DNA of 42,649 bases. Source: Bacteroidales bacterium. Lineage in GTDB: Bacteria; Bacteroidota; Bacteroidia; Bacteroidales; UBA10428. The DNA lies in assembly GCA_016929525.1 (NCBI GenBank), contig JAFGIP010000082.1:1-42649 (forward strand), written 5' to 3'. Positions within the stretch are counted from its first letter, which is position 1. The number at the start of each line of letters is the position of its first letter. Shown here piece after piece: positions 3,549-31,755 of the stretch. The position numbers and the translations under genes are program-made. Below the pieces are notes generated by a model. It was not told where the DNA came from, ran no database searches, and was given only the letters and a program-made list of their open reading frames with translations.

Positions 3549-4148
3549 ATGAGCCAGCCCTCTGAACCTGATAAAAATACTACTCCGGAGAAATGGGTTG
3601 AACTGTACGGGGATTATTTATATAATTATGCATTTTCCCGTATTAACAAGAAAGATCTATCATATGATCTGGTTCAGGAAACATTTCTGGCAGCATTATC
3701 GGCACGTAAGTCTTTCGAAGGCAGAAGTTCTGAAAAAACATGGTTAACTTCTATCCTTAAAAGAAAAATCGTTGATCATTATCGAAAAGAATTCAGAAAC
3801 AAGGAACACCACATTATTGACAAAAATTTTTCCGAAGAGAAAGAAGACCTGCCTTTTTATAGCAGCGGTGAATTTCAGGGGCACTGGAGAGCTGACAGGG
3901 TACCAAAAGATTGGCATATTAGAGCCGATGAAGCTCTTGAGAACGAAGAATTAAGAAAGATAATTGAACTATGTATCTCTGTATTACCTGAAAAATGGGC
4001 TGCAGTATTTACACTGAGAATTATTGAAGAATTAGCATCTGAGGATGTTTGTAAGGAACTGGAAATTACAGCGTCCAATTTGTGGGTTATACTTCACAGG
4101 GCTAAACTTCAGTTGAGGGATTGTGTTGAAAAAAACTTGTTAAAATAA
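3549..4148 (+). CDS. ECF-type RNA polymerase sigma-70 factor
   Basis: A 199-residue sigma factor with only regions 2 and 4, the ECF layout. Region 2 covers about residues 20-85, with the typical DLVQETFLAAL segment and TWLTSILKRKIVDHYRK. Region 4 covers about residues 130-192, ending in a helix-turn-helix (EDVCKELEITASNLWVILHRAKLQLRDCVE). It recruits core RNA polymerase to an alternative promoter class. The next gene starts 6 bases downstream and encodes a small zinc-finger protein, so the two are almost certainly co-transcribed as sigma factor and antagonist. The S-N-x-W-V-x-L-H-R-A form of the recognition helix resembles a Bacteroidota/Proteobacteria subgroup paired with short zinc-finger partners. 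That subgroup assignment is from memory and not tested. The target regulon cannot be read from the sequence. Confidence 0.9.
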   Translation: MSQPSEPDKNTTPEKWVELYGDYLYNYAFSRINKKDLSYDLVQETFLAALSARKSFEGRSSEKTWLTSILKRKIVDHYRKEFRNKEHHIIDKNFSEEKEDLPFYSSGEFQGHWRADRVPKDWHIRADEALENEELRKIIELCISVLPEKWAAVFTLRIIEELASEDVCKELEITASNLWVILHRAKLQLRDCVEKNLLK

Positions 4149-4154
4149 ACGGGT

Positions 4155-4457
4155 ATGACAAAGATTAGTTTAATGGCACTCATGCGTCGTATGATGATCA
4201 ATTGTGAAGAAGCAACATATCTTACAGTGAAAGCATCCGTTGAAGGAGTATCAATGAAAGATGTCATCAACCTGAAAATGCACCGTGCCGGCTGCCCTCA
4301 TTGCAGAAAATATTTTGAGCAAAATAAGATCCTCGATCGTTCTATACGGAAACATATTTCACATGCTGTTGAAACAAGGCAGCCTTTGCATCGGTTATCC
4401 GACTCAGGCAGGTCGAAACTTCAGAAATTAATCACCAGCAAAATCCAGTCAGCTTAG
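4155..4457 (+). CDS. Small zinc-finger (zf-HC2-like) anti-sigma candidate
   Basis: A 100-residue protein with the layout of a zinc-binding anti-sigma domain: Cys17 in the first helix (NCEEATYLTVKAS), then His43-x3-Cys47-x2-Cys50 (HRAGCPHC). It has no hydrophobic segment, so it should be cytoplasmic, unlike the membrane-spanning anti-sigma factors. It lies 6 bases after the ECF sigma gene, which supports a role in binding and silencing that sigma factor, perhaps in response to thiol oxidation or zinc loss as known for some of these domains. The trigger is inference. The C-terminal half, about residues 60-100, is basic and unrecognised. Confidence 0.75.
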   Translation: MTKISLMALMRRMMINCEEATYLTVKASVEGVSMKDVINLKMHRAGCPHCRKYFEQNKILDRSIRKHISHAVETRQPLHRLSDSGRSKLQKLITSKIQSA

Positions 4458-23562: not shown

Positions 23563-23636
23563 GGTTCCGTAGCTCAGCTGGATAGAGCAACAGCCTTCTA
23601 AGCTGTGGGTCGCGCGTTCGAATCGCGCCGGAATCA
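23563..23636 (+). tRNA. tRNA-Arg (anticodon TCT)
   Basis: A complete 74-base cloverleaf. The acceptor GGTTCCG pairs with CGGAATC with one G-U pair. D-stem GCTC/GAGC, anticodon stem ACAGC/GCTGT around loop CTTCTAA (anticodon TCT at 23597-23599), and T-stem GCGCG/CGCGC around TTCGAAT are all intact. Discriminator base A; the 3' CCA is not encoded. A terminator follows within 10 bases. An accessory-looking block begins just downstream. Confidence 0.97.
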
Positions 23637-23643
23637 CCTTGTT

Positions 23644-23793: not shown

Positions 23794-24546
23794 ATGAACA
23801 AGTTAGCTTGTAATGAGGAAATAATAACGTTAACAAGGTCTTCAACTAATTTTCTGAATGAAGCACAGGATTTAATAGAAAGTATTGCTTCAAAATTTAT
23901 TACTTCAGGAAGTTTCAGGCATGAAGAAAAGGATGATTTAATTCAAACTATCAATGAGGAATTATTATACAAAATGCCTAAAATCAGGCAGCAGTTCCTA
24001 GGAATTTCTTCGTTCAGAGGTTATTTATCTGTGGTAATACAAAACATTTGCAGGGAGAAAATAAGAAGAAATAAAAGTATCAGGACAACGGAACTAACCG
24101 ATATTCATTTTAATCAGTCAGAGGAATTAAACCCTGAACATGTAATCGTAATTCAGCAGGAAGTAGAAAGATTAAAGAAATTGTTATTGCTATACAATAA
24201 ACAAAGAACAAAAATTATATTGTGCTTAAAACTAAAGTTCAGAATTCCGTTAAATATCTGTGATCTTAGTACTTACCTGGGGAAGATTAATAAGAAAGAA
24301 TACAAAGAATTCAAAGAAAAATTAAAAAATTACAACAAAATCAAAGATGTGGATATCTATGAAGCCATAATCCCATTATTTAATAAGTTTGAAAATAAAA
24401 ACAACAACGCAGATTCTCTTAGAAAATGGATAAAACTTAAAATAAATGAACTAATTGAACTACTTAATGGTGATCCGCCTATTTCCAGTTTTGATGAAGA
24501 TACATTACAAATTTTATTTGAAAAATATATAAGCTTAAATCCCTGA
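23794..24546 (+). CDS. Divergent sigma-70-like protein
   Basis: A 250-residue protein. Residues about 25-95 match sigma region 2: FLNEAQDLIESIASKF, the acidic DDLIQTINEELLYKM helix, FRGYLSVVIQNICREKIRRNK. The rest does not contain an ordinary region 4. After IQQEVERLKKLLLLYNKQRTKIILCLKL there is an unusual Lys/Asn-rich stretch (about 160-205) before a final helix NADSLRKWIKLKINELIEL, which could be the recognition helix displaced by an insertion. It is followed 17 bases later by a membrane zinc-finger protein, the usual sigma/anti-sigma pairing. Base composition is clearly more AT-rich than the flanking housekeeping genes, suggesting acquisition by transfer. DNA binding by this protein is inference. 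Confidence 0.7.
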   Translation: MNKLACNEEIITLTRSSTNFLNEAQDLIESIASKFITSGSFRHEEKDDLIQTINEELLYKMPKIRQQFLGISSFRGYLSVVIQNICREKIRRNKSIRTTELTDIHFNQSEELNPEHVIVIQQEVERLKKLLLLYNKQRTKIILCLKLKFRIPLNICDLSTYLGKINKKEYKEFKEKLKNYNKIKDVDIYEAIIPLFNKFENKNNNADSLRKWIKLKINELIELLNGDPPISSFDEDTLQILFEKYISLNP

Positions 24547-24563
24547 TCCTAATTCTAATATTA

Positions 24564-25379
24564 ATGAATTTTAATATTAATAAAATTATAACAAGCAATG
24601 GCCATCTAAGTGATGAGGGGATTTCTTATTGCGCAGAACAATTAATCGAGGGCAACTATGAAGATCTGCCGGAAGAACTTTTATCCCATATCGAAGAATG
24701 CCATAAATGTAAGAAAAACATATTCGCTGCTTACGATAATTTAAGTAAACCATCCGGGTTAGTTGATACTGAAGATAAGACCAAAGCAAAATTTCCAGTG
24801 TTCAGATCAAATGTTTTTAAGATTGCAGCTGCCATTATCATCCTTTTCGGACTTTTTGTTTTGATACAGGTTAGCATAAAAAATTCCGATAATAAATTAT
24901 CTGGAAATCAAAAACCTGCCGAACAGTTCAGTGATGACACCGTTAACAACACCCAACAGAAAACCGATGTTGAAGATGATATTGCATCATCTGATATATT
25001 AGCTGAAGATGAAGTAAATGCAGAAAGGGATTTAGATGAGCAAAAAACCTATCTTACCGATCATTTTACCCCGTCTGAAAAATTTGAGGCTTTTGTCAAT
25101 GCCACTTTTCGCGATGATAACGACTTTGAATTGGTAAAGCCTGAAAAAACACAAGAATTCAAAATAAACGATAACATTGAATTTAAGTGGAAAACAAATA
25201 TAACTGAGCCTTTAACCCTGATATTTTACAACAACTCCGGGAAAGAAATATTCAGGTCGTCTCAAATCAGTAAAACTTCATATACGTTGAACCAAAGCTT
25301 CTCCCCAGGGCTGTATTATTATAAATTAGAAACCGAGGAGAATATTTTATTTTTTGGGAAAGCATTATTTAAAAACTGA
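24564..25379 (+). CDS. Membrane zinc-finger anti-sigma-like protein
   Basis: A 271-residue protein. The N-terminal zinc-finger domain shows Cys23 and then His42-x3-Cys46-x2-Cys49 (HIEECHKC), as in zf-HC2 anti-sigma domains. One transmembrane helix follows at about 86-106 (FKIAAAIIILFGLFVLIQVSI). The external part has an acidic low-complexity linker (about 110-165) and a compact beta domain (about 195-271: IEFKWKTNITEPLTLIFYNNSGKEIF...SPGLYYYKLETEENILFFGKALF) resembling an immunoglobulin-like module. It should hold the sigma-like partner at the membrane and sense something outside. It is convergent with the CHAT/peptide cluster, 45 bases from the last peptide gene. Confidence 0.8.
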   Translation: MNFNINKIITSNGHLSDEGISYCAEQLIEGNYEDLPEELLSHIEECHKCKKNIFAAYDNLSKPSGLVDTEDKTKAKFPVFRSNVFKIAAAIIILFGLFVLIQVSIKNSDNKLSGNQKPAEQFSDDTVNNTQQKTDVEDDIASSDILAEDEVNAERDLDEQKTYLTDHFTPSEKFEAFVNATFRDDNDFELVKPEKTQEFKINDNIEFKWKTNITEPLTLIFYNNSGKEIFRSSQISKTSYTLNQSFSPGLYYYKLETEENILFFGKALFKN

Positions 25380-25424: not shown

Positions 25425-25598
25425 TTATAGAGTCGATGGAGGTGGTGGCTCTTCTCCACGGTCAGGCCAGGTTGTTGGTTTAGTGCCTCCGGGATGTTCG
25501 TACCAAGGACCGCCATATGGACCATCATAGGAAGAGGTTCCTCCTTTTATCCTAGAAAGTTCTTCGTTTGTTAATTGAATAACTCGCAAATATTCCAT
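25425..25598 (-). CDS. Double-glycine leader peptide 1 (RiPP-precursor-like)
   Basis: A 57-residue peptide on the minus strand, ATG at 25598-25596 and TAA at 25427-25425. The leader, residues 1-20, contains VIQLTNEELSRIKGG, the L-T/S-x-x-E-L-x-x-I-x-G-G pattern of bacteriocin-type and Bacteroidota natural-product leaders. The remaining 37 residues are rich in Gly, Pro, Tyr and Trp (GPYGGPWYEHPGG...) and end in a run of four prolines. No Cys is present, so lanthionine or disulfide chemistry is excluded. It shares leader pattern and upstream sequence with peptide 2 and lies in the CHAT operon. No C39 transporter or modifying enzyme is in the window. Function unknown. Confidence 0.75.
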   Translation of the reverse strand: MEYLRVIQLTNEELSRIKGGTSSYDGPYGGPWYEHPGGTKPTTWPDRGEEPPPPSTL

Positions 25599-25603
25599 AA
25601 CGT

Positions 25604-25619
25604 TTAATTTTAGGTTTGA
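25604..25619 (-). repeat. 16-bp repeat before peptide gene 1 (copy A)
   Basis: On the minus strand TCAAACCTAAAATTAA, exactly 5 bases before the ATG of peptide 1. It is identical in sequence and spacing to the copy at 25885-25900, so it is either a conserved translation-initiation region or a trace of gene duplication. Confidence 0.85.
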
Positions 25620-25723
25620 AGAAGAATATTTAAAAAATAGTCCGGATAAATTGTTTATTCTGATATCTACCGGTAAAGAAGATTTAAATGAATAATCTCA
25701 ACTGTGCCTTAAAATGCATAATT

Positions 25724-25879
25724 TTATTCAATATGTTTTGGCTCTTCACTTTCATCAGGATTAGGCGTAGGTTTTAATACTCCAGGTTTTATTGGTGCAG
25801 GAATTTCTTTAGTAGCACCCCCACCTCTGAATTTTAATAACTCGGTTTTTGTTAATTTAACGAAGTCATGCATTTTCAT
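25724..25879 (-). CDS. Double-glycine leader peptide 2 (RiPP-precursor-like)
   Basis: A 51-residue peptide on the minus strand, ATG at 25879-25877 and TAA at 25726-25724. A second ATG two codons later exists; I prefer 25879 because it keeps the same 5-base spacing to the 16-bp repeat as peptide 1. The leader FVKLTKTELLKFRGG aligns without gaps to IQLTNEELSRIKGG of peptide 1 (consensus L-T-x-x-E-L-x-[KR]-[IF]-[KR]-G-G). The 31 residues after the glycine pair are Pro/Lys/Glu-rich (IPAPIKPGVLKPTPNP...) with no Cys. It begins 42 bases after the CHAT stop codon, so it is probably in the same transcript. Function unknown. Confidence 0.75.
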   Translation of the reverse strand: MKMHDFVKLTKTELLKFRGGGATKEIPAPIKPGVLKPTPNPDESEEPKHIE

Positions 25880-25884
25880 ACGGC

Positions 25885-25900
25885 TTAATTTTAGGTTTGA
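25885..25900 (-). repeat. 16-bp repeat before peptide gene 2 (copy B)
   Basis: Second copy of TCAAACCTAAAATTAA on the minus strand, again exactly 5 bases before the start codon. Flanking bases differ between copies, so conservation is sharply limited to this segment. Confidence 0.85.
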
Positions 25901-25921
25901 GAAATCGATTACAAAATAGGA

Positions 25922-28840
25922 TTATTTTCCAAATAATAAAAATCCTGCCCAGAAGTATGGATCCTGAAGACTTTTATTCTCAATAAAACTTAGTTTGGTC
26001 TTTTGGAGTGCATCTTCATAATTAAAGTTATTTGTGCCGAAATTCTTATAGAATTCAGTCATAAAATATTTCGTTTGCTCATCAAGCATCTTCCACATAG
26101 AAAAAACGACATTTGAGGCACCTGCAGCATAAAATGCCCTGTTCAATGATATCAATCCTTCACCATGTATGTTTTGTCCTATTCCGCTTTCGCATGAACT
26201 CAATACAACCAGATTTGCATTAATATCTAAATTGTTGATCTCTCGAACAAACAGAATACCATCATCATTATATGTATTTTGGTATAAATAATCTGTTTCC
26301 GATATGTTATTATTATCTGAAACAGTCGAATAAAACAACAATCCCGAAAGAAACGTTACTCGATCATCAGAAAAACCATGGGTAGCAACATGAATAATAT
26401 CTGCACCGGGAACCACACTTTTAAAGTTAGATTCTGTTGCAGAATCTTTAATGAAAAGAGTCGAATTTATATTATGCCGGGAAAGTATTTTTGATATTTC
26501 ACGAATTTCAGTTTCCGAATTGGGTAAAGGCTTTATACTTCTATCTGATGAAAAAGATGATTGCAAAGTACTGTCTGAAAATGACAATACATGTTTAGGC
26601 TGAACCAGTAAATCATTAACTTCATTAGTTGTGAAGACAGGAGCAAATGCATAAAATGTAGCCGGGTACTTATTTCCCGATGTAATATGAGTATTATACC
26701 AGGTACTAACAGAATAATGATATGAGACAGAGAAATCTTCAATAAGGAATTTCAACCTTTCACCTGCTACCGAAATTAAAAGTGTTTCAAAAGGAAGATA
26801 ATACAAATATTCATCAGGAATGATTATCAACTTTTTAATACCGCTTAACTGATCATAAACAGGAGAAATAAGTGTTTCAAATATTTGTCTGTTTTGTTCT
26901 TTTGAATTTTCAAAATTTAGTTTCTTAATGTTTTTAAAATAGGTCTTTGTCATTCTTTCAAAATCACCAGGCAAATTATTCCTGGTATAAAGGATTGTAT
27001 CTTTTTTAACCGTTTGAATTATCAAACTGCTTTCTACAATAATATAATTCAATATGCATTCATTCAATTCAAGCGATTCCCTTATCATTTCGGAATTAAT
27101 ATGATCCCGTGTATTAACAATTATTTCATTCTTATTATACAAAAAATTAATCCGGGTTTCGAACTGCTGGATCTCTTCCCGCTTATCCAGAATAGCCTCA
27201 TTAATTACTGAAATTTCACTTTTTGTTTCTTCATTTGATCTTTTGAGTAACATTAGCTGTCTGGAATATAAATTATCAAGCTCAATATTCAGATCTTTCT
27301 TCTTCTGAAGAATGCTGTCATTTACATTAAGCTGATCCGGATATTTGGAACGATGTATATACTGATAAAGCACGGCACTCTTTATCCGCTCGGTATATTC
27401 ATACATTGCTTCGGAATTGATTCCTGAATTAATAAGATAGATATCACACATGATAATAAATATCTTTTCCAGTCTGTTAAGAAAACTTTTATTTAACAAC
27501 AGTTTAGTGTATTCAAAATGATATCGGCCACGGATATATTCCAAAATCTCAAAAGATTTTTGATACTGTGATAACGAATTATTAAGAAATGAAGTATCGT
27601 TGCCTGAAAGGTAAATATCATAATCGGTTTCAGCTTTCAGAAGAGTAATATCAAGCAAATGAGGAAGTGAAATAAACTGATCATTCATAGTAAATTCTGA
27701 TATCGATGATTCCTTTTCAGCATATAATAAATTATTTTGAAAAGCCTTATCGATAGAATTATTAAAATCCTCATTATCTTTTGTATACCTATAATACAAT
27801 GACCTATAATAATGTATTTTTGAGAATACCAGAGCAGGTTCATTAAAGTAATGTTCTGCAAGTTTCAGAGCTTTGTCAAAATAGTACTCTGAGCTGTCCT
27901 TAACACCTGTATAGCCATAACACAATCCAATATTTGATAATAAATAACATACATTCTCCTTATTAGAAGTATCATCATGAAAACTATAAGCCAATTTGTA
28001 ATATTTTAAAGCTTCATAATAGTTATACTGTAACTCATATACTACTCCCATATTATTGTATAATGTTAAAAGCAACCATAAAACGGTTTCATCGTGCGCA
28101 AGTAACATCTTAATTCCGCGTGTAAAATAATTGAGTGCGTTTTGATAATCATGTAAACTGATTGAAAGCAATCCAAGGTCGCAATATATATATATCTCCC
28201 CTTTTTTGTCCAGGTTATTTTTATATCGTTCCAGGGCTAACTGAAAATATAAGTAGGCTGCCTCATGGTCATATTTATCCATATTGACTTCACCTATTAA
28301 TTTAAACAACTCGGCTTTGCTCGTATTAATCTTTGTTAATATGGTGTCTTCTTTAAGTAATGAATTAAAATAGTATAAAGCTTCATCATAATTGCTAAGA
28401 AAATAATTACAGTAGCCAAGATTCTTCCTGCACAAAAGATGATTCACCCTGTATTCATGTTCAAAGCTGTTATACAACTCATCGGCTTTGGAATAGTACT
28501 CCACGGCCTTTTGATAGTTATTGTAATTTACATAGTAGTTGTAACCGTGCAAAGAGTATATTAATGCGATATCAATAAATTGTGCAGGATCAGCATTTTC
28601 ATACTTCTCAATGACTTCATCAAGAATTTCAGTAACGGCATTATAGTCTTCTTTATCCAATAATTCATATGTCTTTTTTATATATGATAACAGAACAGAT
28701 GCTGTGTCGGTTTCTACTAATTTGCTAACAGTATTTATCTGAAATCCGACACTGTCATTATCCACTGAGAAACATAATAAATCAGCACGCATGAATAAAC
28801 TGACAGAAACAATTGCTAAAACCTTTGAAAACAATTTCAT
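25922..28840 (-). CDS. Secreted TPR-CHAT caspase-like protein
   Basis: A 972-residue protein from the ATG at 28840, which gives signal peptide MKLFSKVLAIVSVSLFMRA; the frame extends 16 residues upstream but that would precede the signal. Residues about 35-400 are tetratricopeptide repeats (for example YNNMGVVYELQYNYYEALKYYKLAY, SNIGLCYGYTGVKDSSEYYFDKAL). A coiled coil follows at about 505-575 (KKKDLNIELDNLYSRQLMLLKR...). The CHAT domain, about 660-972, keeps both catalytic residues: His821 in IIHVATHGF and Cys883 in LVVLSSCESGIG, then SLNRAFYAAGASNVVFSMWK. CHAT domains are caspase/separase-like cysteine peptidases; TPR-CHAT proteins include the protease of type III-E CRISPR, though there is no CRISPR here. 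Two GG-leader peptide genes follow downstream. Substrate unknown. Confidence 0.9.
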   Translation of the reverse strand: MKLFSKVLAIVSVSLFMRADLLCFSVDNDSVGFQINTVSKLVETDTASVLLSYIKKTYELLDKEDYNAVTEILDEVIEKYENADPAQFIDIALIYSLHGYNYYVNYNNYQKAVEYYSKADELYNSFEHEYRVNHLLCRKNLGYCNYFLSNYDEALYYFNSLLKEDTILTKINTSKAELFKLIGEVNMDKYDHEAAYLYFQLALERYKNNLDKKGEIYIYCDLGLLSISLHDYQNALNYFTRGIKMLLAHDETVLWLLLTLYNNMGVVYELQYNYYEALKYYKLAYSFHDDTSNKENVCYLLSNIGLCYGYTGVKDSSEYYFDKALKLAEHYFNEPALVFSKIHYYRSLYYRYTKDNEDFNNSIDKAFQNNLLYAEKESSISEFTMNDQFISLPHLLDITLLKAETDYDIYLSGNDTSFLNNSLSQYQKSFEILEYIRGRYHFEYTKLLLNKSFLNRLEKIFIIMCDIYLINSGINSEAMYEYTERIKSAVLYQYIHRSKYPDQLNVNDSILQKKKDLNIELDNLYSRQLMLLKRSNEETKSEISVINEAILDKREEIQQFETRINFLYNKNEIIVNTRDHINSEMIRESLELNECILNYIIVESSLIIQTVKKDTILYTRNNLPGDFERMTKTYFKNIKKLNFENSKEQNRQIFETLISPVYDQLSGIKKLIIIPDEYLYYLPFETLLISVAGERLKFLIEDFSVSYHYSVSTWYNTHITSGNKYPATFYAFAPVFTTNEVNDLLVQPKHVLSFSDSTLQSSFSSDRSIKPLPNSETEIREISKILSRHNINSTLFIKDSATESNFKSVVPGADIIHVATHGFSDDRVTFLSGLLFYSTVSDNNNISETDYLYQNTYNDDGILFVREINNLDINANLVVLSSCESGIGQNIHGEGLISLNRAFYAAGASNVVFSMWKMLDEQTKYFMTEFYKNFGTNNFNYEDALQKTKLSFIENKSLQDPYFWAGFLLFGK

Positions 28841-29050
28841 GATTTGAGAACTACAGCTACAATAACACCACAAACAAGAAAAGTACAAAAATTTTATTTC
28901 CCCTGAAAATTTATTTTAAGTCTTTAATATCAGTAACAAATCCTTGTAAAACTCCTTATTCAAAATATTTTTCCAATCAATTTTTTCCGTTTTATCTCCC
29001 GGTTTGCATCTGTAATATATAGTGAAAATAGATCTTAAAAATCTAGTTGT

Positions 29051-29173: not shown

Positions 29174-30622
29174 ATGAAAACTCTATTTTTTTTTCTTATT
29201 ACAGTTTCAATGTATCTTCTAATTAGTTGTGAAATTGACGATTCTTATATGAATGACCAGTTCACAAACAATGAAGAGAATTTTGATTTAAATACGGAAC
29301 AAAAAAATGAATTAATAGAAAAATATGCTCATATTTTGGCTTTATCTATGGAAAGTTCTGAATTAAGGTCAGTTATTAAAAAAGAAGCTAAAATAAGATT
29401 TGATGGAGATTATGATATTCTTACCAAAACTTTTGAATCACTCCCTCTTGTAAATCGCGGAATGCTAGTAAAAGATTTGCTTCTGACTACAAATAACAAT
29501 GAAGCTATTCAATTAATGAACAGTAGTACTGGTAATGACTTTAATGGTAACGGATATAATATTTTCGATATGATAGAAAGAGTCTTTCCAAATCTACAGA
29601 TTTCAGTTCCTATTCATTGTGAAGAATGGGATACTAAAACGCATATTCCTTTAGTAGCCTATCTTCCATATGATTATGACGAGCAAACAACAAAAGAAGT
29701 TGTTGCATACGATTATTTAGGAAATAAACATATGCTAAGTGTAGATATAGAACCAAAAGAGGCTGTAATAGTTGTTGGCATCTCCGAAAGAGTCGATAAA
29801 AATGGTGATCTATTAAATGATAAAGATGAACTATTTATTATTCCGGGTTCTTTAGAAACTTCATTAAAGAGTGCCCCTGCTGGGCCTGCGACATTAACTC
29901 TTCAACATGGATATTCTAATCAAATTATTCTTGAATGGCAAGATGTAGCAAATGAGACAATGTATGAAGTATGGCGTATGCTCAACGGCCAGTCTAATTT
30001 CGAAAAACTTGCTACAACCTCAAACAACGACAATAATTATGTAAGTTCAATTATTCGATCACCAATGAAAGCCTGGTTTAGAGTTCGTGCTGTAAATCCT
30101 GATGGACCTTCCTCATGGTCTCCTGTCATGGCAACTACTTACGCTCAACGATATGATCAGGAATATCTAAAAATTAAGCAAATGACATTCTCGACAAGTG
30201 CACTAAAAAAAGTTGAGAAATGGCTATCTGGAGCACCTGAAATTAAACTCAGAGTTGTGCGTGGATCTGAAGGTGGAGCCAATGCCGTATATACTTCAGG
30301 TTATTTAGAACCTCCCAGAAGACGTGATATCGAAAATAGCTGGTGGGAGCATGAAGTTCCACTTTTTACCTGGGCAACAAATGTTTATGGGACAGTACTT
30401 ACATTTGACTGGAGAGAGCATGACTGGGAAGATAATGTTACTTTTACAATAAGTGCATCCTACGAAGACAAGTCTGATAATGGAACAATAAAATATGGTG
30501 GAAGTATAACTTTTGAAAATAAAGCTGAAGCAGGTCATATAGGTAATACGGCTGTATTATGGTGGCATTCGAGAAGTATGTGTTATGATCTTTCAGGATT
30601 CAAATGGACATTTGTTTATTAA
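29174..30622 (+). CDS. Lipoprotein with a fibronectin-III-like domain
   Basis: A 482-residue lipoprotein (signal peptide, lipobox LISC, Cys19, next residue Glu). An N-terminal helical part (about 40-135, EKYAHILALSMESSELRSVIKKEAKIRFDGDYDIL) is of a type I recall in other Bacteroidota lipoproteins. A beta region follows (about 140-230), with an acidic metal-site-like ERVDKNGDLLNDKDELFII. A fibronectin-III-like module covers about 235-325 (TLTLQHGYSNQIILEWQDVANETMYEVWRM...FRVRAVNPDGPSSWSP). The C-terminal 150 residues are Trp-rich and unrecognised. It is divergent from the CHAT gene and similarly AT-rich, so it may belong to the same accessory block. Surface location is likely; function unknown. 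Confidence 0.75.
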   Translation: MKTLFFFLITVSMYLLISCEIDDSYMNDQFTNNEENFDLNTEQKNELIEKYAHILALSMESSELRSVIKKEAKIRFDGDYDILTKTFESLPLVNRGMLVKDLLLTTNNNEAIQLMNSSTGNDFNGNGYNIFDMIERVFPNLQISVPIHCEEWDTKTHIPLVAYLPYDYDEQTTKEVVAYDYLGNKHMLSVDIEPKEAVIVVGISERVDKNGDLLNDKDELFIIPGSLETSLKSAPAGPATLTLQHGYSNQIILEWQDVANETMYEVWRMLNGQSNFEKLATTSNNDNNYVSSIIRSPMKAWFRVRAVNPDGPSSWSPVMATTYAQRYDQEYLKIKQMTFSTSALKKVEKWLSGAPEIKLRVVRGSEGGANAVYTSGYLEPPRRRDIENSWWEHEVPLFTWATNVYGTVLTFDWREHDWEDNVTFTISASYEDKSDNGTIKYGGSITFENKAEAGHIGNTAVLWWHSRSMCYDLSGFKWTFVY

Positions 30623-31200: not shown

Positions 31201-31755
31201 TCACCCCATCACCCTCTTCCCCGTTTCGCTTGCTTTAATTAATTTTTCAAGTCTCCTGAATTTTGTCGGTTCTTGCTTTGCACTCATAATCCAGTAGCAC
31301 ATTGTGCGTTGGTAAGAAGGTGCCTGGGAATTAAAAAATGTCCAAGCTATCATGTTTTGCTTTAAAGTCTTTTCCATTTCCGGAGTCAGCTTAGCATCTC
31401 GATTGCTGCTCATTACAGGATCACTTTCTTTACATTCCTGAAATAACTTTAGTCCGGAGGGATGCATGAGACCTTCTTTTATAAGCCTTTCAGCTTTATT
31501 TATATTCACCACACTCCAGTCGCTTTTGGGATTTCTGGGAGTAAATCGTATACAGTAGCTCTTTTTATCAATTGATTTTCGGATACCATCTATCCAGCCA
31601 AAGCAAATGGCTTCATCAACCGACTGCGGCCAGGTAATACTCGGAATACCGGAATCCACTTTATAATAACCTACCCAAAGCTCCTTCCTTGAATCATGGT
31701 TTTTTTCAAGCCAGTTTCTGAATTCTTCCTGATTTGAAAAAAAGGTTGGGTTCAT
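31201..31755 (-). CDS. YdeI/OmpD-associated family protein
   Basis: A 184-residue protein with family marks: an N-terminal FRNWLEKNHDSRKELWVGYYK, then ITWPQSVDEAICFGWIDGIRKSIDKKSYCIRFTPRNPKSDWSVVNINKAERLIKEG, and a C-terminal helical part ending RRLEKLIKASETGKRVMG. Members are annotated as YdeI/OmpD-associated or bacteriocin-protection proteins; the biochemical activity is not established. The length is usual. It is alone on the minus strand, between the hairpin region and the GH3 gene. Confidence 0.9.
   Translation of the reverse strand: MNPTFFSNQEEFRNWLEKNHDSRKELWVGYYKVDSGIPSITWPQSVDEAICFGWIDGIRKSIDKKSYCIRFTPRNPKSDWSVVNINKAERLIKEGLMHPSGLKLFQECKESDPVMSSNRDAKLTPEMEKTLKQNMIAWTFFNSQAPSYQRTMCYWIMSAKQEPTKFRRLEKLIKASETGKRVMG

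Follow-up and report, generated by a model that had tools for sequence, protein, structure and literature searches.

The sequence described here is contig JAFGIP010000082.1 (positions 1 to 42,649, forward strand) of the Bacteroidales genome assembly GCA_016929525.1; this whole stretch of 42,649 nucleotides (nt) is called the window. It contains a gene for a protein with tetratricopeptide repeats (TPR) and a CHAT domain, followed by two genes for short peptides with double-glycine (GG) leaders. These are met, in convergent orientation, by a gene pair that resembles an extracytoplasmic function (ECF) sigma factor and its anti-sigma factor. The genes and repeats of the locus are as follows.

25922 to 28840, minus strand: TPR-CHAT cysteine peptidase-like protein, 972 amino acids from the ATG at 28840; an upstream TTG at 28888 is a possible start.
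25724 to 25879, minus strand: GG-leader peptide A, 51 amino acids, leader MKMHDFVKLTKTELLKFRGG; it starts 43 nt past the CHAT stop codon.
25425 to 25598, minus strand: GG-leader peptide B, 57 amino acids, leader MEYLRVIQLTNEELSRIKGG.
25874 to 25900, minus strand: 27-nt direct repeat, copy at the start region of peptide A.
25593 to 25619, minus strand: 27-nt direct repeat, copy at the start region of peptide B.
23794 to 24546, plus strand: ECF-like sigma factor of divergent sequence, 250 amino acids, convergent with the CHAT operon.
24564 to 25379, plus strand: anti-sigma-like single-pass membrane protein, 271 amino acids.

The initial annotation of the window had described a secreted TPR-CHAT protein with intact His821 and Cys883, followed on the same strand by two peptides of 51 and 57 residues with gapless leaders and cysteine-free cores. 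Open reading frames (ORFs), Pfam and alignment agree with this description. The CHAT domain (PF12770) covers residues 650-971 with E=1.6e-54 and 185.7 bits, against a curated cut-off of 24, and TPRs are also found by Pfam. His821 and Cys883 (numbering of the window protein) are invariant in an alignment of 47 rows, and the aligned catalytic His and Cys are retained in 77 of 77 CHAT loci. The protein is classed as peptidase-like, and proteolytic activity is predicted. Its hydrophobic N-terminus was read by eye as a signal sequence, in keeping with the proposed secretion. A role in defence was considered with PADLOC and set aside, as only generic TPR or weak matches were returned.

The leaders of the two peptides (LTKTELLKFRGG and LTNEELSRIKGG) align without gaps in the ORF translations, and the cores, of 31 and 37 residues, contain no cysteine. 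On a 12-column position-specific scoring matrix for GG leaders they score 27.0 and 26.8; both belong to the 15 leaders of a first set of loci on which the matrix was trained, and only a later set of 70 loci tests it. In Markov shuffles of the 545 bp past the CHAT gene, a leader match above 10 arose in 5 of 2000 runs, and one above 20 in 0 of another 2000. For the GG peptides, family libraries gave no more than leader-level matches. Both window peptides lie under the TIGR01847 and ComC cut-offs (peptide B reaches 13.5 bits with the TIGR01847 bacteriocin leader, under 15.7), and leaders from related loci exceed the former (19.2, 18.7 and 17.3 vs 15.7). The 27-nt direct repeat (85%) spans the start regions of both peptides. 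Its 16-nt core was rejected as a genome-wide regulatory element, the two window copies being the only ones in the 4.06-Mb genome at up to one mismatch.

The sigma and anti-sigma genes were unmentioned in the initial annotation, and their presence beside the CHAT gene changes the likely role of the CHAT protein. The 250-residue product matches TIGR02937 (E=3.1e-8) and Sigma70_r2 (E=1.9e-4), both under their cut-offs, and region 4 is unmatched; its homologue in another locus of the same genome (L005) has region 2 above the cut-off and also exceeds that of TIGR02937 (53.5 vs 42.9 bits). The 271-residue product carries HIEECHKC, an HxxxCxxC motif, at residues 42-49, and a single hydrophobic segment from residue 83, behind which the C-terminal domain is predicted to lie outside. 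It has no match to a Pfam anti-sigma family and is treated as a candidate anti-sigma factor. Homologues of both genes adjoin each other and CHAT genes in related loci. A second, ordinary ECF sigma gene (3549-4457, plus strand), with regions 2 and 4 above the cut-off, is followed by a gene for a 100-residue CxxC protein; this is likely an unrelated sigma/anti-sigma pair. A tRNA-Arg (tct) gene at 23563-23638 (plus strand), just upstream of the convergent sigma gene, is a possible insertion point for the locus.

The association of GG peptides with CHAT genes was assessed in two sets of loci. The first comprised 77 loci, namely 73 TPR-CHAT places in relatives (same order or closer), three other CHAT loci of the window's own genome and the window. 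Of the 76 places returned by the search of relatives, the window and L005 (G000:C100) were already included, and G067:C80:6627, inside another locus, was left uncounted. In this set a looser GG-leader pattern matched mostly beside CHAT. The matrix found 17 peptides in 15 of the 77 loci; each lies no more than 500 bp from CHAT, and no other match in the 980 kb exceeds 7.5 bits. Both results depend on the training. The test set was obtained by alignment from peptide-bearing CHATs and gave 80 named loci, or 70 after removal of 10 repeats; L105 and L148, both peptide-free, contain DNA already present in the first set (in L045 and L054), which leaves 68 separate test loci. A GG peptide lies within 1.2 kb of CHAT in 37 of the 70, a figure that is not a prevalence because the loci were fetched with peptide-bearing CHATs as query. 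The initial annotation had suggested looking for co-occurrence of GG-leader ORFs with TPR-CHAT genes, and it is pronounced: 53 near matches (in 140 kb) stand against 3 far ones (in 655 kb), with a binomial p=1.8e-36 by hit and 7e-25 by locus, loci of one genome or of near-identical species not being independent. All but one of the 53 near peptides lie upstream of CHAT and diverge from it. Chance ORFs were rejected as their source, as shuffled near regions gave 0-3 matches in 20 runs vs 54 in the real sequence.

The named peptide-bearing records belong to Marinifilum, Labilibaculum, Ancylomarina, Sunxiuqinia, Mangrovibacterium, Gaoshiqia and Prolixibacteraceae; one is labelled Chitinophaga pinensis (a metagenome-assembled genome), yet its CHAT groups with a Prolixibacteraceae CHAT. 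The window's own genome has four CHAT loci, and besides the window two of them (L005 and L007) each have a GG peptide. The fourth, L006, has sigma and anti-sigma genes and no recognisable GG peptide; it contains a Pro-rich 27-residue ORF without GG. Relatives of the window CHAT at E<=1e-30 occur in 57 of 148 related genomes. The genetic link between peptides and CHAT is genuine and is met with in many loci. Because some CHAT loci lack GG peptides, these cannot be a constant component of every TPR-CHAT locus.

The peptides are under purifying selection. For orthologous pairs, the ratio of nonsynonymous to synonymous substitution rates (dN/dS) is 0.09-0.24 in 10 of 11 and 0.59 in one; 12 pairs had been chosen, one was dropped for unequal length, and pairs share sequences. 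A lack of such selection in relatives, which the initial annotation had named as an argument against a functional system, is thus not what these pairs display. Between orthologues the leader changes little and the core more. Tandem copies occur: one 30-residue peptide is present four times in Marinifilum flexuosum, a 33-residue peptide three times in each of two Labilibaculum records, and Marinifilum sp. D714 has six related copies. Over 70 peptides, copies counted, the core has a median of 15 residues and is rich in Asp, Pro and Ile. Some cores have acidic ends (IEDLD, VEDLE, NEDILV); the title of a PDB entry states that TPR domains of HOP bind EEVD-type tails, a mere lead for these ends.

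The surroundings of the peptides were compared in the 70 loci, drawn from both sets and without the window, whose flanks reach 4 kb or more upstream and 2.5 kb or more downstream. Sigma or anti-sigma profile matches are present in 35/35 peptide-bearing and 21/35 peptide-free loci, and a transporter with a C39 domain in 18/35 vs 1/35 (Fisher p=5e-6). The transporter profile also catches ATP-binding cassette (ABC) transporters without C39; 25 of the 30 labelled genes have the domain, and the counts are restricted to these. In L005 the order is HlyD, C39-ABC transporter, histidine kinase, anti-sigma-like gene and GG peptide, then the opposite CHAT gene and a convergent sigma gene; it recurs in two other genomes of the genus (L033 and L060). 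Some cassettes hold a HisKA/HATPase protein without an evident sensor part. The labels for HlyD, histidine kinases and proteins with a tail for the type IX secretion system (T9SS) are profile matches, of which single examples were checked with Pfam. In L102, whose cassette has a C39 transporter, a second GG peptide bears cysteine (RGGQGCLLECMGQ...) 3533 bp upstream of CHAT; perhaps it is bacteriocin cargo.

The window itself has no C39 transporter, as had been noted; the two PF03412 matches of this genome lie on other contigs (C100 and C103). The reported absence of radical SAM and lanthionine enzymes holds for the 28 of 39 window ORFs of at least 100 amino acids that were scanned with Pfam, the other 11 being outside the scan. 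The initial annotation had seen a difficulty in a CHAT protein with a secretion signal and peptides without one. This is eased by related loci, one of them in the same genome, that encode a C39 peptidase-transporter and HlyD beside a GG peptide, and the missing local exporter was for the same reason rejected as a fatal objection, since L005 has both genes. On contig C103 (L083:3428-10460) the second C39 transporter/HlyD-like pair lies behind a small gene similar to the helix-turn-helix (HTH)-like genes described below; a 334-residue protein there resembles, by eye, an ATP-grasp peptide maturase.

A promoter element connects these genes. Seven-mers enriched upstream of peptide-bearing CHATs led to GGTWACC, and the aligned sites read GGGTTACCTTT-N12-GNATWAA. 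In the direction of transcription, 22 of 51 loci have the element ahead of the first peptide, a count that is not independent because the element was found in regions beside peptides. Its presence ahead of sigma genes is independent of the discovery: 24/95 carry it in the right direction and 2/95 in the opposite one, and 23 of the sites sit 32-47 nt before the start codon. The corresponding figures are 8/23 (opposite 4/23) for T9SS-tailed genes, 3/35 (5/35) for kinases and 4/704 (8/704) for other genes; no directed element was found ahead of 82 anti-sigma or 24 transporter genes. In six whole genomes the strict pattern occurs 0 (own genome), 5, 9, 5, 2 and 4 times, against 0, 0, 0, 1, 0 and 0 for the reversed control. 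Among the 25 strict sites, 3 lie ahead of sigma genes, 5 ahead of CHAT-side peptides and 5 ahead of a small HTH-like gene, a call made by eye (one such gene has a sub-threshold Pfam HTH_11 match, and one tested has no match). The element would be read by the cassette's own sigma factor.

Larger stretches were examined around 10 of the 25 strict sites. In Labilibaculum sp. K2S (L256), the site and small HTH-like gene are directly followed by a GG peptide, LanC, LanB and a C39 transporter; in Ancylomarina euxinus (L257), lanthipeptide-like precursors, LanC and LanB begin 3.3 kb downstream of such a site; and in L254 the site is followed by a gene that looks HlyD-like by eye, a C39 transporter and a GG peptide of low score. 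No genes for ribosomally synthesised and post-translationally modified peptides (RiPPs) were recognised by eye at two other small-HTH sites and the five remaining examined sites. The lanthipeptide genes of L256 and L257 are of class I (LanB, LanC, GG-type precursors). In the window, one partial match to the cassette promoter stands ahead of the CHAT gene, against 0.24 expected per window.

28910 to 28937, minus strand: partial cassette promoter match GTTAC-N17-AATAAA, 70 nt before the CHAT start.

This half match is weak and was noticed after the fact. No promoter common to the sigma genes most like that of the window was seen when these were listed by eye.

Protein topology was predicted from sequence. 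A C-terminal hydrophobic segment is present in 51/52 peptide-bearing CHATs (the window is the exception) vs 56/95 peptide-free ones, and 78 of 95 anti-sigma profile matches near CHAT have one hydrophobic segment, 19 of the 95 being CHAT itself or longer than 400 residues. A model of the Marinifilum anti-sigma-like protein (predicted local distance difference test, pLDDT, 79.4) places a TPR domain after this segment. Given the CHAT anchor and the anti-sigma segment, the protease and the anti-sigma C-terminal domain are therefore predicted on the same side of the membrane. The model of the window CHAT (pLDDT 79.6, predicted template modelling score 0.78) was compared with the PDB by Foldseek. 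It matched human separase (E=8e-12, template modelling (TM) scores of only 0.24/0.18), the Craspase TPR-CHAT protein 7xsr_C (E=2.7e-11, TM 0.39/0.53) and 8rot, the transmembrane anti-sigma factor DdvA (E=6.0e-10, TM 0.40/0.43, 1005 columns). A sequence search of solved structures gave 210 matched sequences, of which the 60 listed look TPR or TPR-like; the pheromone receptors NprR and RapF are among the matches listed, which is no proof of peptide sensing.

These features suggest a sigma switch under peptide control: once exported, the GG peptides would influence the anti-sigma factor by way of the TPR-CHAT protease. We give this reading, which is drawn from sequence comparison, a probability of about 0.42. 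The precursors would be made in the cytoplasm, and a C39 peptidase-transporter, for the window one encoded elsewhere in the genome, would cut after GG and export the short core. Outside the inner membrane the core could bind the TPR surface of CHAT or of the anti-sigma protein and switch CHAT proteolysis on (or off). CHAT would then cleave the outer part of the single-pass anti-sigma factor, and the freed sigma factor would transcribe its own gene, the peptide gene and, in some species, lanthipeptide clusters. The element shared by sigma and peptide genes suggests a positive loop in which the signal would run from peptide to CHAT, from CHAT to sigma and from sigma to more peptide. The fuller version, with GG-leader pheromones passing through C39 transporters and gating a membrane-anchored CHAT, an ECF sigma factor serving its own gene, the pheromone and lanthipeptides, and the window as a second, independent coupling, is held only tentatively. 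The set as a whole looks like an undescribed peptide-controlled gene switch in some Bacteroidota.

Several observations weigh against the switch. The element is found in CHAT's own direction ahead of 0 of 134 CHAT genes; its strict form has no match in the window's genome and hence none at the window peptide operon. As in the window, 17 of 35 peptide-bearing loci have no nearby C39 gene, and the cores differ widely between genera. GG peptide and T9SS-tailed protein replace each other beside CHAT, which also fits both as outputs of the sigma factor. The window also stands apart. A tree was made of 143 CHATs, after four of 147 loci had been omitted because their CHATs are short; 51 of 52 peptide-bearing CHATs fall in one clade of 108 (Shimodaira-Hasegawa-like approximate likelihood ratio test 98), and the window CHAT lies outside it, its place being unsure because of its long branch. 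It also has no C-terminal anchor like that of the other peptide-bearing CHATs. By both traits the window is not a typical member of the cassette, though it may work in a like manner. Among 20 window-type loci, chosen for likeness to the window CHAT (7) or to the 271-residue protein (13), CHAT is present in 15, the sigma/anti-sigma pair in 17 and both in 12, and a GG peptide above 8 bits in none; three have matches to the transporter profile, which also catches ABC transporters without C39. CHAT loci L008-L011 and the short contig L013 likewise have no GG peptide. In a sample of 296 genomes from across the phylum, 44 match the anti-sigma profile, and of 20 listed places outside the order, CHAT is nearby in 10 and a GG peptide beside it in 0. 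Therefore CHAT, sigma and anti-sigma genes exist together without peptides, and the peptides appear as an addition to this wider module. The proposal of the initial annotation, an undescribed peptide system linked to CHAT, thus stands in that the link recurs in many loci; it is weakened in that the loci most like the window have no peptides. Homologous CHAT loci without peptides, which had been named as contrary evidence, are the rule among the window-type and outside-order loci.

The best surviving alternative, possible in our judgement, is that CHAT responds to some other signal by cleaving the anti-sigma factor, and that the GG peptides do not act on CHAT but are mere output of the sigma regulon, as bacteriocin-like or surface-acting peptides. 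It fits nearly as well, because T9SS-tailed proteins (8/23; opposite 4/23) and a lanthipeptide cluster carry the same element as the peptides. Beside CHAT, 43 loci have a GG peptide, 11 a T9SS-tailed protein, 16 neither and none both, and CHAT/sigma/anti-sigma loci without GG peptides are common. In eight loci (L020, L023, L034, L052, L080, L111, L125 and L142) the peptide's place upstream of CHAT is taken by a secreted protein akin to the 412-residue protein of L080, which is carboxypeptidase-regulatory-like and cohesin/dockerin-like with a T9SS tail; several such genes bear the cassette promoter element. Nevertheless, the peptides adjoin CHAT instead of being scattered over the regulon (53 near, 3 far), the cores are short (median 15 residues) and acidic, and tandem copies that are nearly identical are more readily explained by a signal that works by dose than by a toxin. 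Immunity genes were not recognised, although no systematic search for them was made.

For the window alone, chance is an unlikely but concrete explanation: ordinary GG bacteriocin-type genes may have landed between an unrelated CHAT gene and its sigma/anti-sigma genes. The position of the window CHAT outside the peptide clade, its different gene order and its peptide-free relatives are consistent with this, as are an exporter available only in trans and cores of 31 and 37 residues vs a median of 15. On the other hand, two chance GG peptides within 500 bp of CHAT are improbable because far matches are rare (3 in 655 kb), peptide A starts on the same strand 43 nt past the CHAT stop, and a GG peptide is also present at two of the three further CHAT loci of this genome. 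The window is thus either an independent coupling of GG peptides to another CHAT lineage or a case of such hitchhiking. It is also improbable that the peptides are cut by CHAT as a peptide-processing enzyme or plug its active site as feedback of the sigma regulon, which would suit their adjacency and an element on the peptide gene and not on CHAT (0/134), since C39 transporters account for leader removal, the listed cores have by eye no common cleavage-like motif, and the CHAT cleavage of a sigma inhibitor described in the part of PMC10028731 consulted points to the anti-sigma factor as substrate.

Two neighbouring genes complete the picture of the window. A divergent gene at 29174-30622 (plus strand) shares its upstream region with CHAT and encodes a 482-residue lipoprotein-like product with modest matches to PF21910 and DUF3103; none of the genes in the first set of loci is homologous to it. 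A gene of the YdeI/OmdA family (31201-31755, minus strand), whose Pfam name mentions bacteriocin protection, lies about 2.4 kb upstream of CHAT.

The window is best regarded as an unusual member of a sigma/anti-sigma/TPR-CHAT set that is often coupled to GG peptides in the sampled Bacteroidales and their near kin. Many of the sampled Bacteroidota have TPR-CHAT proteins whose N-terminus is signal-like. The CHAT loci described here offer a short, probably exported peptide as a possible ligand, the anti-sigma factor as a possible substrate and, in the promoter element, an output that can be read. If the fuller version of the sigma switch is real, Gram-negative bacteria would have a new form of peptide signalling. 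Some of the loci belong to cultured strains with names (Marinifilum flexuosum, Labilibaculum, Ancylomarina, Sunxiuqinia), so peptide signalling and a possible control of lanthipeptides are directly testable. Searches of the open-licence literature listed no paper with this combination in its title or the opening of its abstract; most subscription papers and bioRxiv preprints lie outside that literature, and the system may be described elsewhere.

Known systems share parts of this arrangement. In Nostoc, HetF (CHAT) and the PatS/PatX peptides invite comparison. The C39 exporter there is HetC, according to the part of PMC10986499 consulted. The bacteroidetocins and other Bacteroidales RiPP clusters likewise combine a GG leader with a peptidase-containing ABC transporter (PCAT) in Bacteroidales (PMC6671954, PMC10352776, in part); in the portion of PMC10352776 consulted, "caspase" and "sigma factor" are not mentioned, and the matches to "chat" seen are the author name Chatzidaki-Livanis. 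The PCAT-exported Com, Blp and Rtg peptides of streptococci, as far as the consulted part of PMC7018657 describes them, also have a GG leader, a C39 transporter and short cores. As with these, a bacteriocin-type cluster here carries the regulon element. Unlike them, the host is Gram-negative, no membrane-receptor kinase or cytoplasmic RRNPP receptor was recognised in these loci, and the candidate receptor is a protease or an anti-sigma factor.

Proteolytic release of a sigma factor is familiar from DegS, a PDZ serine protease that senses misfolded outer-membrane proteins. In the DegS/RseA/RpoE system, an envelope stress-responsive protease cuts the anti-sigma factor and frees sigma (PMC10028731, in part); peptide activation of DegS enters here only as a title cited in that paper. 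Unlike DegS, the protease here is a CHAT cysteine protease, with dedicated peptides. A second parallel is the anti-sigma/ECF sigma pair DdvA/DdvS of Myxococcus xanthus, since the DdvA structure 8rot is a match of the window CHAT model. DdvA presumably bears a TPR/CHAT region itself, with the anti-sigma and TPR/CHAT-like parts in one protein; here, in contrast, anti-sigma factor and CHAT are separate genes, and GG peptides are added. DdvS controls a defence island, as stated in the consulted part of PMC12288465.

A further parallel is Craspase (Csx29-Csx30-CASP-sigma, type III-E CRISPR), where, in the part of PMC10028731 consulted, the TPR-CHAT protein Csx29 cleaves Csx30, the inhibitor of an ECF sigma factor; as here, TPR-CHAT protein, ECF sigma factor and sigma inhibitor are encoded together. 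No Cas7-11/gRAMP was found among the 28 window ORFs scanned with Pfam, and no search aimed at Cas7-11 was made. Unlike Craspase, the CHAT protein here has a signal-like N-terminus and the candidate inhibitor is a membrane protein. Guide RNA together with target RNA activates the Craspase protease, whereas here GG peptides and a C39 exporter stand in the place of the RNA sensor.

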